A stretch of 64,000 bases of DNA from Niastella koreensis GR20-10 (GTDB lineage: Bacteria > Bacteroidota > Bacteroidia > Chitinophagales > Chitinophagaceae), in contig NC_016609.1 of NCBI RefSeq assembly GCF_000246855.1, positions 7,328,744-7,392,743 of the forward strand, read 5' to 3'. Below the pieces are notes generated by a model that was given only the letters and a program-made list of their open reading frames with translations, did not search any database and had not been told where the DNA came from. The position numbers and the translations under genes are program-made. Every line of letters begins with the position of its first letter. Within the stretch, counting starts at the first letter, position 1. Positions 47,837-53,805 of the stretch are shown here, piece after piece.

Positions 47837-48877
47837 TTATTTTTGGTCAGGCTCTTCCTTCTCTTCCCGCTCATACTTCTGTATCGCCATGTTCAATCTT
47901 TTATGGATCCGTGACTTCAGGATGCGCGGAGCCAGTACTTTCATACATTCGCCAAAACCAAGGATCTCCCGCTCCAGTTCAAAGTTCAACACCACTTCAA
48001 TCCTGATAATAATCCCCTGGTCAGTTTCCTTCAGCAATGTCTGGGAATGATGGAGGGGTTTTGTCAACACATAGGGCGCATTGTATTTGTCAATAAACAA
48101 CACCACTCTGCTGGCTTTGTCGCTTTCGTTTTTAGTAACCCCTATCAGGTTATCAAAATAGCTGTCAAAATCAATTCCATCATGGTCATCGAACGGCTCT
48201 TTGGCCAGCTCCTGAAATTCTATAATGCGGTCGAGCGCCATGGTAAGTAAGAGTTTCCGCTTTTTATTCCGGGCTATCAGGAACCACCGGTTGCGGTATT
48301 CCTTCAGCAAATAAGGATAACAAATAATATGTTGGGAAGCGGCCGCTTTAAATGACTTGTATTCTACCAGCAACGATTTTTTATTCAGGATAAACTGGTA
48401 GAGTGGATTGATATGCTCCAGTCCCTTCAGCAAATGGTTTCCTTCAAATTGAATGCAATTGCGTCCCTGGTTAGTAGTACGCTGCAGGTTATTTTCCAGG
48501 CGGGCGATCATGTCGCTCATTTCATCGAAATAGGTAAACCCATTGAACTGCTTCAACACCCCCACGATCTCCTTCATTTTCTCTACGTCGGCCTGATTCA
48601 CCGGGGCATTGGTAATGCTGAATTCAGGATCGCTGTAGGAATAGAATTTTCTGTCAACAACAACAATAGGCGCATTGTAACCCAGTTTATCACTGCGCAT
48701 TATCTGAATATCGGCCTGAATGGTGCGCTTGCTCACCCCGGTGGTGATACCTTCCATTTCGTACAGCACATCCGCTACTTTTATAATCAGGTCGTCCAGG
48801 GTCCATTTACGATACCTGTTACGCAGGCAATCATCGATGGTTTTATAACGTATAAGGGCCAGTTTATTTATCGACAT
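47837..48877 (-). CDS. WYL-domain transcriptional regulator
   Basis: A 346-residue regulator from the ATG at 48877 (an in-frame TTG at 48925 is less likely). It has an N-terminal winged helix-turn-helix (about 15-75, VSKRTIQADIQIMRSD) and a central WYL domain (about 140-220, KKSLLVEYKSFKAAASQHIICYPYLLKEYRNRWFLIA region), then a WCX-type C-terminal extension. WYL domains bind nucleic acid or nucleotide ligands and control defence and RNA- or DNA-damage genes. It is divergent from the RNA-repair operon across the tRNA-fragment region and is the obvious candidate to control it. Confidence 0.9.
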   Translation of the reverse strand: MSINKLALIRYKTIDDCLRNRYRKWTLDDLIIKVADVLYEMEGITTGVSKRTIQADIQIMRSDKLGYNAPIVVVDRKFYSYSDPEFSITNAPVNQADVEKMKEIVGVLKQFNGFTYFDEMSDMIARLENNLQRTTNQGRNCIQFEGNHLLKGLEHINPLYQFILNKKSLLVEYKSFKAAASQHIICYPYLLKEYRNRWFLIARNKKRKLLLTMALDRIIEFQELAKEPFDDHDGIDFDSYFDNLIGVTKNESDKASRVVLFIDKYNAPYVLTKPLHHSQTLLKETDQGIIIRIEVVLNFELEREILGFGECMKVLAPRILKSRIHKRLNMAIQKYEREEKEEPDQK

Positions 48878-48918
48878 AGCATTGGTTGGGGCAGTAAAAA
48901 TAATATACGGGTTTTTAT

Positions 48919-49060
48919 TACGCAATACACTTGCGCAGATTGCCCTTATTTTTTTTAAATAGAAATTATTTTGAGCGTTAATTCCGTGTTAACCATACAA
49001 TTAAAAGCAGCAGGCGAAAATAATTTATCACTGCGCAATTGGGCTGCGTGATGCTGCGTG
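48919..49060. promoter_or_regulatory. Cluster of TGCGYR motifs in the divergent control region
   Basis: TTGCGCAG (48931-48938) recurs inverted as CTGCGCAA (49031-49038). An ACGCAA at 48920 and the direct repeat GCTGCGTG (49043-49050 and 49053-49060) share the same core. Five related cores within 142 bases of the WYL gene start suggest regulator sites, possibly for WYL itself. Confidence 0.4.
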
Positions 49061-49151
49061 CATATTTGCTCTATCAAATTCATGGTCAAGAAAAAGTTAC
49101 TTCAGCCGTTTTTTATAACAAAACTATTTCAATTACCGTTTTTGATTATCC

Positions 49152-49177
49152 GGAGCAGTAGCTCAGTTGGTAGAGCA
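49152..49177 (+). ncRNA. 5' half of a tRNA-like structure (acceptor 5' strand and D-arm)
   Basis: GGAGCAG (49152-49158), TA, D-stem GCTC/GAGC (49161-49164 and 49173-49176) around the loop AGTTGGTA with the conserved GG, then A. This is a perfect 5' half of a class I bacterial tRNA. It is followed by AAGAA but no anticodon arm. Its acceptor strand can pair with 49335-49341. Confidence 0.8.
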
Positions 49178-49220
49178 AAGAAAAGTTTTAAAATTACCAC
49201 CGGGTCAATTCAAATTTACT

Positions 49221-49275
49221 TCAAATTGGCATACTGTCCGCAAGGGCAGACCTGGTTCGAATCCAGCCCGTTTGA
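49221..49275 (+). ncRNA. Mini tRNA-like element with class II-type variable arm and T-arm
   Basis: A hairpin CTGTCC-GCAA-GGGCAG (49234-49249) is followed by a T-arm CTGG-TTCGAAT-CCAG (49252-49266) and CCCGTTTGA (49267-49275). The first hairpin looks like the long variable arm of tRNA-Leu/Ser. TCAAATTGG (49221-49229) can pair with CCCGTTTGA with one wobble and one mismatch, closing a three-helix structure of 55 bases. It has no D-arm or anticodon arm. Confidence 0.7.
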
Positions 49276-49317
49276 AAATTATCGTGGTCAATTAACGCTT
49301 ACTGCCTTACTTGGGTC

Positions 49318-49342
49318 GTTGGTTCGATTCCAACCTGCTTCG
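49318..49342 (+). ncRNA. 3' half of a tRNA-like structure (T-arm and acceptor 3' strand)
   Basis: T-arm GTTGG-TTCGATT-CCAAC (49318-49334) is directly followed by CTGCTTC (49335-49341) and a G. CTGCTTC pairs over all seven positions with GGAGCAG at 49152 (one G-U wobble), as in an intact tRNA. GGGTC before it (49313-49317) looks like a normal variable loop, and TACTT (49308-49312) could be a remnant of the anticodon stem. CCA is not encoded. Confidence 0.8.
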
Positions 49343-49429
49343 CTAAACTATGGTCAATTGTTGCTTACTACAATTCACTTTTTGGATAAAGCCCAGCAAC
49401 AAAATTATCAGGTTTTTAAATTAAGTACT

Positions 49430-51664
49430 ATGAATCCTTTATTAACAGTCAGCATTCGTCAAAAGGCAATCTATATCCCCGAAGGGGCCATCATCAACAA
49501 CTATGAGTCCATTACCCGAAACACGGGCTTATTAGTAGCCAATTTAACCAGCCTGGGTTATGGGGTTTCTGAATCGTTGCTGAAAACTTTAAATAATACC
49601 GCACCGGGGTTTCAGTTAACCCTGCTGGAAATGCTGCGTGATGTAACCGGTGTGAACAAGAACTGGACGCCGCTGACAAAAGACTGGCTGGTACCAACCG
49701 GTGAATCATTTGCAGATCATTTAGCTACCTGGTTTGCCAATATTTATAAAATCAAAGGGACTGTGCTGCCTTGCGGACATAATATCCCCGATGGAACCTT
49801 TCCATTGCACCGCTATAATGGCTGCCCATTCTGCGGTAAACCTTTTGAATTTGGTGACATTGAAAATTTCAAACAGGGAAGCAAACAGAAAATACTGGAA
49901 TTATGGTCATCAAAAGATGCTGCCGATTTCCTGACCGACCTGTTATCGTCTAAAACAGCGTTGGATGCTACCCAAATGGATAGCCTGAAAATCCTGTTGG
50001 CAGAATTGCCTTTACCTGCAGTATCTGTAGGTATGAAGGAAACGTTGATGGCCGTAATAGATATTTATATCACCCGCAACGAGGCGGAAAAAGCACAGGC
50101 ATTATTCACCTCACCTGCCGATGTGTTGCGTTACCTGTGGTATAAACATACGGGGTTCCTGCAGATTATAGAACCTGCTACCCTTATCAAACGCAAAGCG
50201 GCAAACAACAGCCATCGGGTAGGAATCCTGGATAAAAGCGCCAGTGCAAAATTCAAGGAAAAATCGCAGTTGAAACTGAAATACACCCGTAAGGAAAGCC
50301 TGATGGTAGCTACCTGGTTAAATAACATGAACCTGGATACCGCCGGAATGTGCGAAATGATGCATCCTAAACGCGGGATGTGGGTACGTTTTATCAGGGC
50401 TTTACGGCTTGCTGAATACAGCAAACGAAAAGGCTATGATAAACTGCGTGACCTGCTGGATAAATTCTATAAAGAAGATTACCAGGTATGGCAGGGAATG
50501 GTTGAACATTACAAATTGCGTTACGATGTAACTTCCACCTTCGCCTTATTGCAACAACGTCCTGGCTTATTTGCCCGTTCATTGTTCGCCAATATGCTGT
50601 GGTTTGGGAGTGATATTACCATTGCTGCCTTTATGGATGTCATCGATAAAGTACCGGCCCGTTTGTTGTTTACGCTGGCCATGTACGCCGATAATTATTT
50701 CGATATAACAAATACCCGAGTGGTAAAACCATTAGGGGGTGTGAACAAGAACATTCAGCCAAACCGGATGCTGGCTTTGTACAACAATGACCAGCTGCAG
50801 GAAATGAAGGAGGCTGTTGCCGACCTGTGCCTGCTGGCGGTTAAAACCCGCTTTGCGAGAATAGCGCCAACGGGTAAAAGCATGTATATAGCACCTTCGC
50901 TGTTCAAAATACCGGTTTCAATCGGTGATAGAAACGAAACCGTACAGGACCTGTCTGGCGTATTAATGGGTACCCGGTTTACAGTGGAAGGGGACGCTGT
51001 TCGCCTGTTCATGCAATGGGGAACCGGTTTAACCGCCCAGCATATGGATATGGACCTGAGCTGTTTGATTGCGTATAAAGACAGAACCGAACGTTGCTCT
51101 TACAGTGAGCTGACCGTTACCGGCTGCCAGCATAGCGGCGACGTTCGGTATATTCCTAATAAGATAGGTACTGCTGAATACATTGAAATGAATATCCCCG
51201 TATTGCAAAAAGCAGGAGCCTTATACGTAAGCTTTACGTGTAATGCATACAGCAATGGTGGTATAACGCCAAACCTGGTTGTGGGTTGGATGAACAGCAA
51301 ACATAAAATGACCGTTTCACAAAAATCGGGTGTAGCCTATGACCCTTCCTGTGTACAACACCAGGTACGGGTGGTAAATGATACCAGCAAAGGATTGGTG
51401 TTCGGCGTATTGGATGTGGCTAAAAGCGAGATCATTTGGCTGGAATTACAATTCGAGGGTCAGGTTGTACAGAACCTGGATACCAGAACGGTAGAAAATA
51501 TGCTGCAGAAACTGAACAGCAAATTAACCATTGGGCAGTTATTAAAAATAAAAGCCGAAGCCCAACTGCTGCAACTGGTTGAGGAACCAGGGCAGGCAGA
51601 TGAAGTGTACACTACCGCGTGGGCACAGAATACGGCTGCAGTGACCAAATTATTAATAGATTAA
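49430..51664 (+). CDS. RING-type zinc-finger and TerD-like protein (MXAN_6230/SCO0854-like)
   Basis: A 744-residue protein from the ATG at 49430. A zinc motif reads C115-x-H117 ... C132-P-F-C135 (LPCGHNIPDG ... NGCPFCGKPF), as in the RING-containing MXAN_6230/SCO0854 family, named here from memory. Residues about 150-520 are helical, HEAT-like, with a basic stretch near 270-300. Residues about 525-690 resemble TerD (MDMDLSCLIAYKD ... GCQHSGD). The frame stays open upstream to 49058, but that part is the tRNA-fragment array and is not counted. First gene of the RNA-repair-like operon; the next starts 6 bases later. Confidence 0.8.
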   Translation: MNPLLTVSIRQKAIYIPEGAIINNYESITRNTGLLVANLTSLGYGVSESLLKTLNNTAPGFQLTLLEMLRDVTGVNKNWTPLTKDWLVPTGESFADHLATWFANIYKIKGTVLPCGHNIPDGTFPLHRYNGCPFCGKPFEFGDIENFKQGSKQKILELWSSKDAADFLTDLLSSKTALDATQMDSLKILLAELPLPAVSVGMKETLMAVIDIYITRNEAEKAQALFTSPADVLRYLWYKHTGFLQIIEPATLIKRKAANNSHRVGILDKSASAKFKEKSQLKLKYTRKESLMVATWLNNMNLDTAGMCEMMHPKRGMWVRFIRALRLAEYSKRKGYDKLRDLLDKFYKEDYQVWQGMVEHYKLRYDVTSTFALLQQRPGLFARSLFANMLWFGSDITIAAFMDVIDKVPARLLFTLAMYADNYFDITNTRVVKPLGGVNKNIQPNRMLALYNNDQLQEMKEAVADLCLLAVKTRFARIAPTGKSMYIAPSLFKIPVSIGDRNETVQDLSGVLMGTRFTVEGDAVRLFMQWGTGLTAQHMDMDLSCLIAYKDRTERCSYSELTVTGCQHSGDVRYIPNKIGTAEYIEMNIPVLQKAGALYVSFTCNAYSNGGITPNLVVGWMNSKHKMTVSQKSGVAYDPSCVQHQVRVVNDTSKGLVFGVLDVAKSEIIWLELQFEGQVVQNLDTRTVENMLQKLNSKLTIGQLLKIKAEAQLLQLVEEPGQADEVYTTAWAQNTAAVTKLLID

Positions 51665-51670
51665 TCGAAG

Positions 51671-51994
51671 ATGAACAAATATGAACGGCTCAAAGCAGAT
51701 TTAGCGGGAGCCGGAACCGGAAAATTAAAAGCGTTTGGCAATTCCATGTTGCCAATATTGAAAAACGGTAGCCTGCTAACTTTTGTAAAGGCGCCTGATT
51801 ATAACATTGGCGATATCGTTTTCTGTAAAGTAAAAGGCAGGTACATCGATGCGCATAAAGTTGTAAAGAAAGATGCCAACAAAGGTTTCCTGATAGCCAA
51901 TAACCATGGCTTTGAAAATGGCTGGACGAAGATAGTTTATGGAAAAGTAGTAGTAGCCGAATATCAGGGCAGGATCATTTATAAAACGGAATAA
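51671..51994 (+). CDS. S24/S26 peptidase-like small protein
   Basis: A 107-residue protein with the fold of the S24/S26 (LexA/signal-peptidase) superfamily: GNSMLPILKNGS carries the Ser-Met-x-Pro motif, and NIGDIVFCKV is the usual following strand. The partner position reads IDAHKVVKK, with histidine next to lysine, so catalysis is possible but unproven. There is no membrane anchor and no DNA-binding domain. It sits 6 bases after the RING/TerD gene and one base before the first RlaP gene. Confidence 0.8.
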   Translation: MNKYERLKADLAGAGTGKLKAFGNSMLPILKNGSLLTFVKAPDYNIGDIVFCKVKGRYIDAHKVVKKDANKGFLIANNHGFENGWTKIVYGKVVVAEYQGRIIYKTE

Positions 51995-51995
51995 C

Positions 51996-52760
51996 ATGCA
52001 ACAACTGATAACAGATAAACTAACCGCAGTAGAAAAGGAGCACGGCATCCGCATCCTGTATGCCTGTGAATCAGGCAGCAGGGGCTGGGAATTCCCGTCA
52101 CCAGACAGCGATTATGATGTGCGGTTCATTTATGTGCATCCTTATAAATACTACCTGTCGGTAATGGATAGAGAGTACGATCTCAACTTTCCCATTAGTG
52201 GCGAGCTGGATATGTATGGCTGGGACATTCGCAAAGTGTTGCAATTGATGCGCAAATCGAATACCACCCCGTTTGAGTGGATCCAGTCTCCGATTATATA
52301 CCGGCAGGGGCCAACATTCAGGGACGATCTGTGGCAATTGAGCCAGTCTTATTTTAGCCAGATTTCCAATATTCATCATTACCTTGGGATAGCCCGGGGC
52401 GCCATGGAGTCAATTGAGAACGGCAACGAAATAAAGATCAAAAAACTGTTCTATGTGCTTCGTCCGCTGTTATCAGCCAAATGGTGTTTGGAAAAGCAAT
52501 CCATTGCACCTATGACCATCGGACCGCTGATGACATTGCTGCCCGATGCGCTAAAAAAGCAGGTGAGCGATTTGATCGCGCTGAAAGCTACTGCACCGGA
52601 AAGTTTTATTATAACTATCAATGCAGAACTGAAAACATACACCGATCACGAATTTGCCCGCATCAGCGAAGCAAGTACACATTTAAAAAGAGACCAGTTT
52701 ACTGCTGATGAACTGGATGCATTTTTTGTAAATACTATTACCCGGTATGACCATCAATGA
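51996..52760 (+). CDS. RlaP-type nucleotidyltransferase 1
   Basis: A 254-residue nucleotidyltransferase of the DNA polymerase beta superfamily, RlaP type (RNA-repair-associated). The active site reads ESGSRGWEFPSPDSDYDVRF, with the Gly-Ser motif and two metal aspartates in DSDYD. Residues after about 100 form a helical domain. RlaP proteins are found with RNA ligases and in RNA-repair loci and may restore or modify tRNA ends. It overlaps the next gene by 14 bases. Confidence 0.88.
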   Translation: MQQLITDKLTAVEKEHGIRILYACESGSRGWEFPSPDSDYDVRFIYVHPYKYYLSVMDREYDLNFPISGELDMYGWDIRKVLQLMRKSNTTPFEWIQSPIIYRQGPTFRDDLWQLSQSYFSQISNIHHYLGIARGAMESIENGNEIKIKKLFYVLRPLLSAKWCLEKQSIAPMTIGPLMTLLPDALKKQVSDLIALKATAPESFIITINAELKTYTDHEFARISEASTHLKRDQFTADELDAFFVNTITRYDHQ

Positions 52761-53805
52761 TATAAAAGAAAAGGGGCTGCTGCTTTTTGAATGCATCAGT
52801 GGCAGCAAAGCATACGGATTAAACACCGCTCAGTCTGATACAGATCTGAGGGGTGTTTATTATTTGCCAAAAGCGCAGTTTTATGGACTGGAATACATTC
52901 CGCAGATCAGCAATGAAACCAGCGATGAAGTGTATTACGAGCTGGGCAGGTTTGTTGAATTGCTCATTCGCAATAACCCCAATATCCTGGAATTGCTGGC
53001 ATCGCCGGAAGATTGTATCCTGCATAAACATCCCATCATGAACAGGTTCACCCTTGACCTGTTCCTGTCGAAGTTGTGCAAGGAAACCTTTGCCGGTTAT
53101 GCATTTACCCAAATAAAAAAAGCAAGAGGTTATAAAAAGAAGATCGTAAATCCGGTTGACCCGGTTCGTAAAACAGTACTTGATTTTTGTTTCATCCTGC
53201 AAGGGTATCAATCCATTTCATTACGGGAATGGCTGGCGCAAAACAAGTATAGCCAGGACCAGTGCGGGCTTACCAGCATTCCACATTCAAAAGGACTGTA
53301 TGCCCTGTTTTATGATGCCGCCAATCAACACAGGTACAGAGGCGTTATAAGTACTGAACTGGCTAATGAAGTTTCCCTATCGTCTATTCCTAAGGGCGAA
53401 AAAGAAAGCGCCTACCTGTTCTTTAACCTGGAAGGCTATTCTTCTTATTGTAAAGAATACCGCGAATACTGGGAGTGGATAGAAAAGCGAAATGAAATCC
53501 GTTACCAGGATAATGCTGAACATGGAAAAGGTTATGATGCCAAGAACATGATGCACACCATCCGGTTGTTACAGGTGGCCGAAGAAATATTGCGGGAAGG
53601 CAAGCTAAACGTAAAGCGGCCTAACCGGGAAGAACTGTTATCCATAAAGACCGGTCAGTTTCAATATGATGACCTGCTGGTAATGGCCGACTCCTTAATG
53701 CAACAGATAGAAACAGCGTATATCCAAAGCCCGTTACCAGACATGCCCGATAAAGAAAGGCTTGAGAGCCTGTTAGTGCAAATGCGGGAGGAATTATACG
53801 GGTAA
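52747..53805 (+). CDS. RlaP-type nucleotidyltransferase 2
   Basis: A 352-residue second nucleotidyltransferase of the same group, with active site ISGSKAYGLNTAQSDTDLRG (Gly-Ser and Asp-x-Asp). It is longer than its neighbour by a C-terminal helical extension containing YDAKNMMHTIRLLQVAEEIL, a block typical of this branch. Two adjacent, divergent copies suggest different RNA substrates or an obligate pair. Last gene of the operon. Confidence 0.88.
   Translation: MTINDIKEKGLLLFECISGSKAYGLNTAQSDTDLRGVYYLPKAQFYGLEYIPQISNETSDEVYYELGRFVELLIRNNPNILELLASPEDCILHKHPIMNRFTLDLFLSKLCKETFAGYAFTQIKKARGYKKKIVNPVDPVRKTVLDFCFILQGYQSISLREWLAQNKYSQDQCGLTSIPHSKGLYALFYDAANQHRYRGVISTELANEVSLSSIPKGEKESAYLFFNLEGYSSYCKEYREYWEWIEKRNEIRYQDNAEHGKGYDAKNMMHTIRLLQVAEEILREGKLNVKRPNREELLSIKTGQFQYDDLLVMADSLMQQIETAYIQSPLPDMPDKERLESLLVQMREELYG

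Follow-up and report, generated by a model that had tools for sequence, protein, structure and literature searches.

The closest described counterparts of the locus reported here are the YrlA RNAs, the Ro60 (Rsr) proteins that they accompany and the RNA-repair operons in which they are found. As described, a YrlA RNA (Rfam RF02553) combines a stem with a tRNA-like domain possessing D, T and acceptor arms (PMC8394870, PMC7790460), uses the loop of the stem to hold this tRNA mimic (PMC8394870), and occurs in RNA-repair operons, such as the RtcR-rtcBA operon of Salmonella, which unites RNA repair genes, a Ro protein and tRNA-mimicking RNAs (PMC7790460). The locus examined here, from the bacterium Niastella koreensis, is comparable: a conserved, structured RNA array is linked to one particular protein, P0003, and often to RNA repair genes, and it carries an element that is also found in Y RNAs. 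We consider it likely that the array is a leader that encodes a group of Y-RNA-like RNAs serving P0003, a divergent Ro-like protein; the array looks like the RNA component, with P0003 as the partner protein, of a ring-shaped complex akin to that of Ro60 with Y RNA. The inspected titles and opening lines of abstracts, which cover part of the literature hits, contain no description of this layout, and an earlier mention of the family or of its RNAs is possible.

The window analyzed is a 64,000-nt stretch of the N. koreensis GR20-10 genome (GCF_000246855.1, NC_016609.1, 7,328,744-7,392,743, forward strand), and positions below are those of the window. The array region (48878-49429) lies between a divergently oriented gene for a WYL-domain regulator (47837-48877, minus strand; Pfam WYL 1.9e-9, WCX 8.5e-8) and the operon headed by P0003. 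It contains four copies of the sequence GGTCAA-N7-TTACT (49084-49101, 49203-49220, 49286-49303 and 49352-49369), and across the 9.03-Mb genome this pattern matches four times on the forward strand, always within this array, and never on the reverse strand, while the same pattern written backwards gave 8 and 6 matches. The four-copy repeat that a first-pass annotation of the sequence had placed in front of the operon is therefore real, although its consensus required correction to GGTCAA-N7-TTACT, the first copy reading GGTCAAGA, not GGTCAATT. Overlooked at that stage was the partner of each repeat, a spaced strand with the sequence x'-NAUUAYC. As the upstream sequences of homologous genes reveal, each repeat supplies one side of a hairpin with the plan GGUCAA-x8-UACUUC ... 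x'8-NAUUAYC, in which x8 is highly variable and x' tracks it (GTATAAGA with TCTTATAC in locus L023, TATCAACT with AGTTGATA in L049).

Three types of module built on this hairpin are found across the arrays: plain hairpins, hairpins that display a small tRNA elbow and a T arm in the loop, and whole tRNAs with an inserted stem. Plain hairpins form the first and the last module in the window and in many other arrays. The first one in the window (49084-49137, plus strand) pairs GGTCAA-x8-TACTTC (49084-49103) with x'8-AATTACC (49123-49137) through 7 of 8 x/x' pairs; the last one (49352-49409, plus strand) pairs x8 TTGTTGCT with x'8 AGCAACAA at 8 of 8 positions and ends 20 nt before the start codon of P0003. 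Upstream of the modules, an inverted repeat, TACGCA-N7-TGCGCA (48919-48937), is a candidate operator for the WYL protein. The corresponding pattern, T[AG]CGCA-N7-TGCG[TC]A, precedes the array in 35/45 homologous regions, a count made without a shuffled control; a looser second inverted repeat (49031-49049), not matched by this pattern, lies beside a promoter-like site, TTG-N21-TATTTG (49039-49068, plus strand). We take the latter to be of the Bacteroidota-type promoter consensus, and its signal is weak, with such sites in 18 of the 45 regions vs 11 when the reverse strand was read.

Between the two plain hairpins lies a tRNA-like element (49152-49342, plus strand), which the Rfam tRNA model spans end to end with 40.2 bits (E 4.4e-7; 581 bases searched), leaving 129 nt between the two model-covered parts of the anticodon arm. 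Its arrangement, taken also from the comparative structure of its relatives, is a 5' part (49152-49177), an x' strand (49184-49198), an x strand (49286-49303), a T arm (49318-49334) and the acceptor 3' strand with the discriminator (49335-49342), such that a Y-like stem lies inside the anticodon arm. Nested between the x' and x strands is an elbow module (49203-49283, plus strand) made of an x stem and a loop with a TTGG... stretch and a T arm, CCTGGTTCGAATCCAGC. Because the tRNA model fits the entire segment with a long insertion in the anticodon arm, the 5' and 3' "halves" recognized in the first-pass annotation are one tRNA shape. The tRNA pieces it had noticed among the repeats were thus correctly seen, and what it called a class II-like 3' piece does lie within 49203-49283 but proves to be the nested hairpin with its T-arm-like elbow. 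Its suggestions of an array of tRNA halves and of a record of captured tRNA ends found no support, since the halves constitute a single fold whose acceptor-stem pairing is kept through compensatory changes.

Copying of the halves from a host tRNA was also considered and rejected, as the matches of the region within its own genome (E<=0.1) all cluster near the D arm and none falls in the 3' parts: the 16 non-self matches among the 17 lie in query positions 83-121, around the conserved D arm, and ordinary tRNAs reside at several of the 16 sites. A split or intron-bearing tRNA gene, from which the insert would be removed and the exons joined by repair enzymes into a working tRNA, would account for rejoined anticodon stem-loops that are often complete tRNA arms in the relatives. 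We regard it as very unlikely, because the anticodon stem of the window element, rejoined over the insert, forms 4 of 5 pairs and closes a non-canonical loop that is no working anticodon loop, because the plain and elbow modules contain no exons, and because the Ro60-linked array of the same genome, discussed below, has such a stem with a circularly permuted tRNA. ARAGORN called no tRNA in the window, and the element has neither this call nor the complete anticodon arm that mark a functional tRNA gene.

The alignment of homologous upstream regions that the first-pass annotation had suggested yielded an array in every usable case, and neither the array-less homologues nor the recent debris that it had named as refuting outcomes were encountered. 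From 54 P0003-type loci (L009-L062), 51 upstream regions were obtained, and removal of three duplicates (L026, L057, L038) and three unusable ones (L052, L056, L062) left 45; all 45, among which close relatives such as L030 and L036 remain, contain the repeat, with 184 repeat strands altogether and from one strand (L013) to eight (L049) per array within 1.5 kb. P0003 homologues were found in 16/244 genomes of the family, 17/298 of the order and 11/395 of the phylum, the genome of the window being counted each time, as well as at 13 named loci from Niastella, Longitalea, Chitinophaga, Flavobacterium, Xanthocytophaga and others.

Pairing in these relatives confirms the hairpin. With partners selected by position alone wherever both strands were found, x and x' form 7.37 of 8 pairs in last modules (n=43; shuffled mean 5.18, maximum 5.72), 6.86 of 8 in first modules (n=36; 5.09 and 5.67) and 7.12 of 8 in tRNA-type elements (n=41; 5.81 and 6.17). 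None of 1000 shuffles, in which the partners were dealt randomly, attained the observed pairing, and the row of the window (L009) in this test contains an inner strand. T-arm-like loops were recorded in 19 rows by script, two of which (L042 and L044) erroneously span a tRNA-like element; 12 of the 19 also contain a D-loop-like stretch, e.g. TTGGTAA. In tRNA-type elements the order is 5' part, x'-NAUUAYC, loop, GGUCAA-x-UACUUC, 3' part, so that the stem is entered from its other end.

Altogether 52 tRNA-like elements were found, of which 37 (110-135 nt, distinct, the window copy left out) were used in a pairing test of the whole element. Their 29 proposed pairs are formed in 97.5% of cells, vs 82.6% when shuffled (0/500 shuffles as high), and in at most 49.2% with slid partners, a comparison that is favored because the structure was drawn from the same 37 sequences. 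Stronger evidence comes from the compensatory counts: double-sided changes occupy 168 cells vs 43 in the shuffled sets. They affect all stems (six in total) except two, namely the D stem, which is invariant, and the GGU/AYC stem, which varies on one side only. Such changes, and the presence of the array in all usable homologues, speak against the debris of tRNA genes or of a tRNA-integrated element, or a chance repeat, an explanation that might appeal to the decayed anticodon loops of some copies and to a complete tRNA inside one array (L049). We find it hardly credible, and in the form of recent debris or a chance repeat it was rejected in view of covariation, conservation and the genome-wide pattern count. 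The tRNA in question (L049, 4965-5038, minus strand; 74 nt, 70.4 bits) lies within a Y-like array and has the loop CTTTTAA, which by our own reading would make it a Lys-type tRNA. In a long array that precedes position 4001 of L029, an uncultured Microscilla record, three tRNA-like elements were found within about 1.25 kb.

Anticodon arms were counted in 48 of the 52 elements, L036, L059 and two elements shorter than 100 nt being left out. When the two sides are rejoined over the insert, 39 of the 48 have a fully paired anticodon stem (shuffled mean 4.7, maximum 12), and Y32, U33 and R37 are all present in 23 of the loops, where TTT is the commonest triplet (10/23, eight of the ten from Flavobacterium-type loci). 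These arms, together with the repair genes that adjoin the arrays, would suit a bait or decoy for anticodon nucleases, in which anticodon loops, often of the Lys-type UUU kind, carried on a protected RNP absorb or report cleavage while the operon repairs the ends; a related idea, YrlA as a competitive nuclease inhibitor, appears in PMC7790460. We hold this as a possible but not the favored explanation, given that the other 25 of 48 loops are non-canonical, that of the window included, that the nuclease examined in Salmonella reportedly left YrlA uncut, and that the regulator is a WYL protein, not RtcR.

The reading of the array as Y-RNA-like RNAs draws further on P0003 (49430-51664, plus strand; 744 aa), in which a helical part and a zinc-finger-like stretch are followed by a C-terminal TerD domain. 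The zinc-finger-like stretch (about residues 109-137) matches Prok-RING_4 below the cut-off, and does so in 25/25 members of the family at E<=0.1; the TerD domain (about 512-690) is indicated by the predicted fold (3ibz, Z 13.7), and Pfam TerD matches 1/25 members. Ro60 had been set as the hypothesis before any fold search. When the full-length model was compared with 998 chains, four Ro60 entries were the sole whole-length alignments among the best 50, with Z values of 7.2-7.8 over up to 328 residues (2i91, Z 7.8), a range that the tool labels as common without kinship. For residues 1-511, Ro60 again came first (9nep, Z 7.1 over 209 residues); the unrelated 8qx8 was tied with Ro60 at Z 6.8 but over 102 residues only, and most other chains align over about 100 residues. 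The resemblance in predicted fold to the HEAT ring of Ro60 is suggestive but not proof. Membership in the TROVE family by sequence found no support, as Pfam TROVE (PF05731) matched 0/25 P0003 members at E<=0.1 and hhalign against 12 TROVE proteins returned a probability of 0.1% and no profile similarity; likewise, no Pfam vWA match was listed for the members, Foldseek found no match for P0003 at E<=0.001, and a sequence search of the PDB gave nothing useful. Ro60 consists of a TROVE domain followed by a vWA domain. Relative to Ro60 (Rsr), the nearest predicted fold across its whole length, P0003 differs in lacking a TROVE sequence match, in its zinc-finger-like insert and in having TerD where Ro60 has vWA, a placement that follows from the whole-length alignment. 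By sequence, residues 351-682 of P0003 match the MXAN_6230/SCO0854 RING family (NCBIfam NF041916; E 2.3e-33), but P0003 scores 115 bits where the cut-off is 600, and thus falls outside this curated family.

An internal comparison is available, as the same genome also encodes an ordinary TROVE-vWA Ro60. Downstream of its gene and on the same strand is an array that matches Rfam YrlA with E values of 7.6e-6 and 2.8e-4, both below the gathering threshold (L004, 1240-1760; L111, 2639-3157; minus strand), and in which GUGCCGUA-x-UUACUUC precedes a circularly permuted tRNA-like domain. This association extends beyond N. koreensis: for 12 TROVE genes of the phylum, the flanks downstream contain TTAC[TC]TC 22 times in sense and 0 times in antisense orientation, and this or a D-arm motif lies downstream in 11 of the 12 loci. 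The x-UUACUUC element is thus common to the P0003 arrays and to the Y RNAs of the genome's own Ro60. The guess in the first-pass annotation that the nearest idea was that of tRNA-mimicking Y RNAs next to Ro genes is the part of its interpretation that stands.

The P0003 arrays nevertheless differ from YrlA in lying upstream of the gene and in having GGUCAA/NAUUAYC instead of GUGCCGUA as the base motif. In both a tRNA-like domain is joined to a conserved stem, but in the P0003 arrays the order is reversed, because the tRNA-type element ends at the acceptor stem and holds the stem inside the anticodon arm, whereas YrlA, which binds a Ro60/Rsr ring and tethers PNPase, ends at the base of its binding stem. 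The elbow modules share the YrlA order, with their ends paired at the stem base and the tRNA mimic in the loop. As we read the sequences, the P0003 arrays and the Ro60 array of the same genome would both place the stem in the anticodon arm and differ in where the chain ends. Rfam YrlA (RF02553) and Y RNA models found no match at E<=1 in 48870-49450 of the window or in the L037 array. Since this test and the Pfam TROVE test both fail, our claim is that the system works like a Y RNA system, not that it is a member of one.

The rest of the operon points toward RNA repair. P0003 is followed on the plus strand by a small S24-like peptidase gene (51671-51994; Pfam 1.3e-7) and two genes for RlaP nucleotidyltransferases (51996-52760, Pfam RlaP 1.3e-70; 52747-53805, 5.4e-25). 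Among homologous loci of about ten kb searched by tblastn with the proteins of the window, a WYL homologue was present in 8/13 and 5/5, and RlaP homologues in just 2/13 and 2/5. Ten neighboring proteins were tested: Flavobacterium loci encode a T4 Rnl1-like ligase with a PNKP kinase-phosphatase (L030) or Hen1 with a PNKP ligase (L033), and RtcB is present in L126 and L127. RNA end-repair or ligation genes thus adjoin the arrays, and in several loci none was seen; because these enzymes change between loci and can be missing from view, the protein and the array form the core. RtcA, RtcB and RtcR were absent among the six genes scanned in the window, and where the RtcR-rtcBA operon of Salmonella has RtcR, the operon of the window has a WYL regulator and a pair of RlaP genes. 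The genome has three RtcB genes elsewhere (G000:C1:8266164, 4351949 and 7641997), none of them in the P0003 operon.

The x8/x'8 stem of each module is largely free to vary in sequence and fixed in its geometry. On the reading of the array as Y-RNA-like RNAs for P0003, the constant strands that flank this stem, GGUCAA together with NAUUAYC to one side and UUACUUC to the other, would be the binding site of P0003. RNase P and RNase Z would trim the tRNA-like elements out of the transcript, and a P0003 protein ring would bind the stems. Some modules bear a tRNA mimic, be it a D/T elbow of small size within the loop or a complete tRNA that holds the stem in its anticodon arm. This mimic may then dock tRNA-handling or repair enzymes (RlaP, RtcB, Rnl1) or compete with tRNAs for them, and in this manner steer cleaved tRNAs to repair. 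Decoy or sensor roles are conceivable too, those of the canonical anticodon loops (23/48) included.

Of 39 last modules scored, 35 have their end some 14-31 nt ahead of the inferred start codon, a position that might allow P0003 to limit its own synthesis. This position, and the location of array and operon on the same strand, would equally be expected of a purely cis-acting leader, i.e. an untranslated region that senses the state of tRNA or of RNA repair, regulates the genes behind it and yields no RNA product acting in trans. We think this rather improbable: the number of repeat strands per array ranges from a single one in L013 up to eight in L049, the tRNA-like elements retain a full acceptor stem, and the YrlA-type arrays of the phylum, located downstream of the Ro60 gene, cannot be leaders. 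A bolder scheme, to which we assign a similarly low likelihood, is that Ro-TerD RNPs of bacteria and some phages use permuted Y RNA arrays to display several different tRNAs, along with their anticodon loops, as replaceable baits; a cut by an anticodon nuclease would alter the RNP and raise the operon, and RlaP and a ligase would mend both bait and tRNA. If true, the system would be an immune sensor of tRNA damage, and the choice of tRNAs in the array would determine its specificity. Irrespective of mechanism, a divergent Ro-like family appears to travel with structured RNA arrays that have a covarying stem in each, and the linkage to RlaP, RtcB, Rnl1 and Pnkp/Hen1 makes a testable question of what the tRNA mimic of Y RNAs is for.

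A covariance model built from these arrays (R1) can be used to find more of them. Its E-value alone finds ordinary tRNAs everywhere (244/244 and 395/395 genomes), so that only the best scores per genome and the long matches are informative; among the matches listed, tRNAs of ordinary length reach about 69 bits, whereas 123 bits is the top score of the array RNAs. Within the family, the best E was <1e-12 in 10/244 genomes, all ten among the 16 P0003 carriers, and the remaining 234 genomes (6 with P0003, 228 without) begin at 2.8e-11. In the phylum (395 genomes), 9 of 11 P0003 genomes were recovered. Scores slightly over the tRNA level (71-77 bits) came from G254, G511, G500 and G544, and a long match of 64.6 bits from G328, all five lacking P0003 at the search threshold.

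These additional R1 genomes encode another protein family (L101-L104 and L108-L112, except L111, which covers the Ro60 locus of N. koreensis itself) with upstream arrays of similar plan and the motif GGCAAA-x-GUUCCUAU. Four sequences of this second family align with P0003 by hhalign over 509 columns, the TerD part included (E 4.4e-4, probability 34%), and show no TROVE similarity by the same method. The gene order in G254 is WYL, RtcB, array, protein, RlaP, RlaP. In L108 (G254:C1:689500-702000), L112, L109 and L110, tRNA-like RNAs and hairpins with this motif lie before the TerD-like protein of this second system, and L110 also contains genes for RtcB, a release-factor-like protein (RF-1 domain) and an RNase T-like exonuclease.

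Distant relatives of P0003 (22-24% identity) are encoded in four phage records that represent three different phages, and 21 stretches in IMG/VR fit a pattern for P0003 relatives, none of them confirmed. With a motif pattern that had been widened after the RcXuper and MT835874 sequences were inspected, runs of UUACUUC-like motifs lie upstream in RcXuper (L121) and MT835874 (L120), with 4 sense and 0 antisense matches each; in Weasels2 (L122) the run is downstream (4 sense, 0 antisense; upstream flank 0 sense, 1 antisense), and in L110, where the array is linked to RtcB, 7 matches are in sense and 2 in antisense orientation. By a fixed 8-nt rule, x' pairing in the phage and RtcB-linked arrays was not above that of the shuffled control. 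RcXuper also possesses an RlaP gene, and Weasels2 an annotated RtcB. The stretches in RcXuper and MT835874 match Rfam tmRNA models, the permuted tmRNA model among them.
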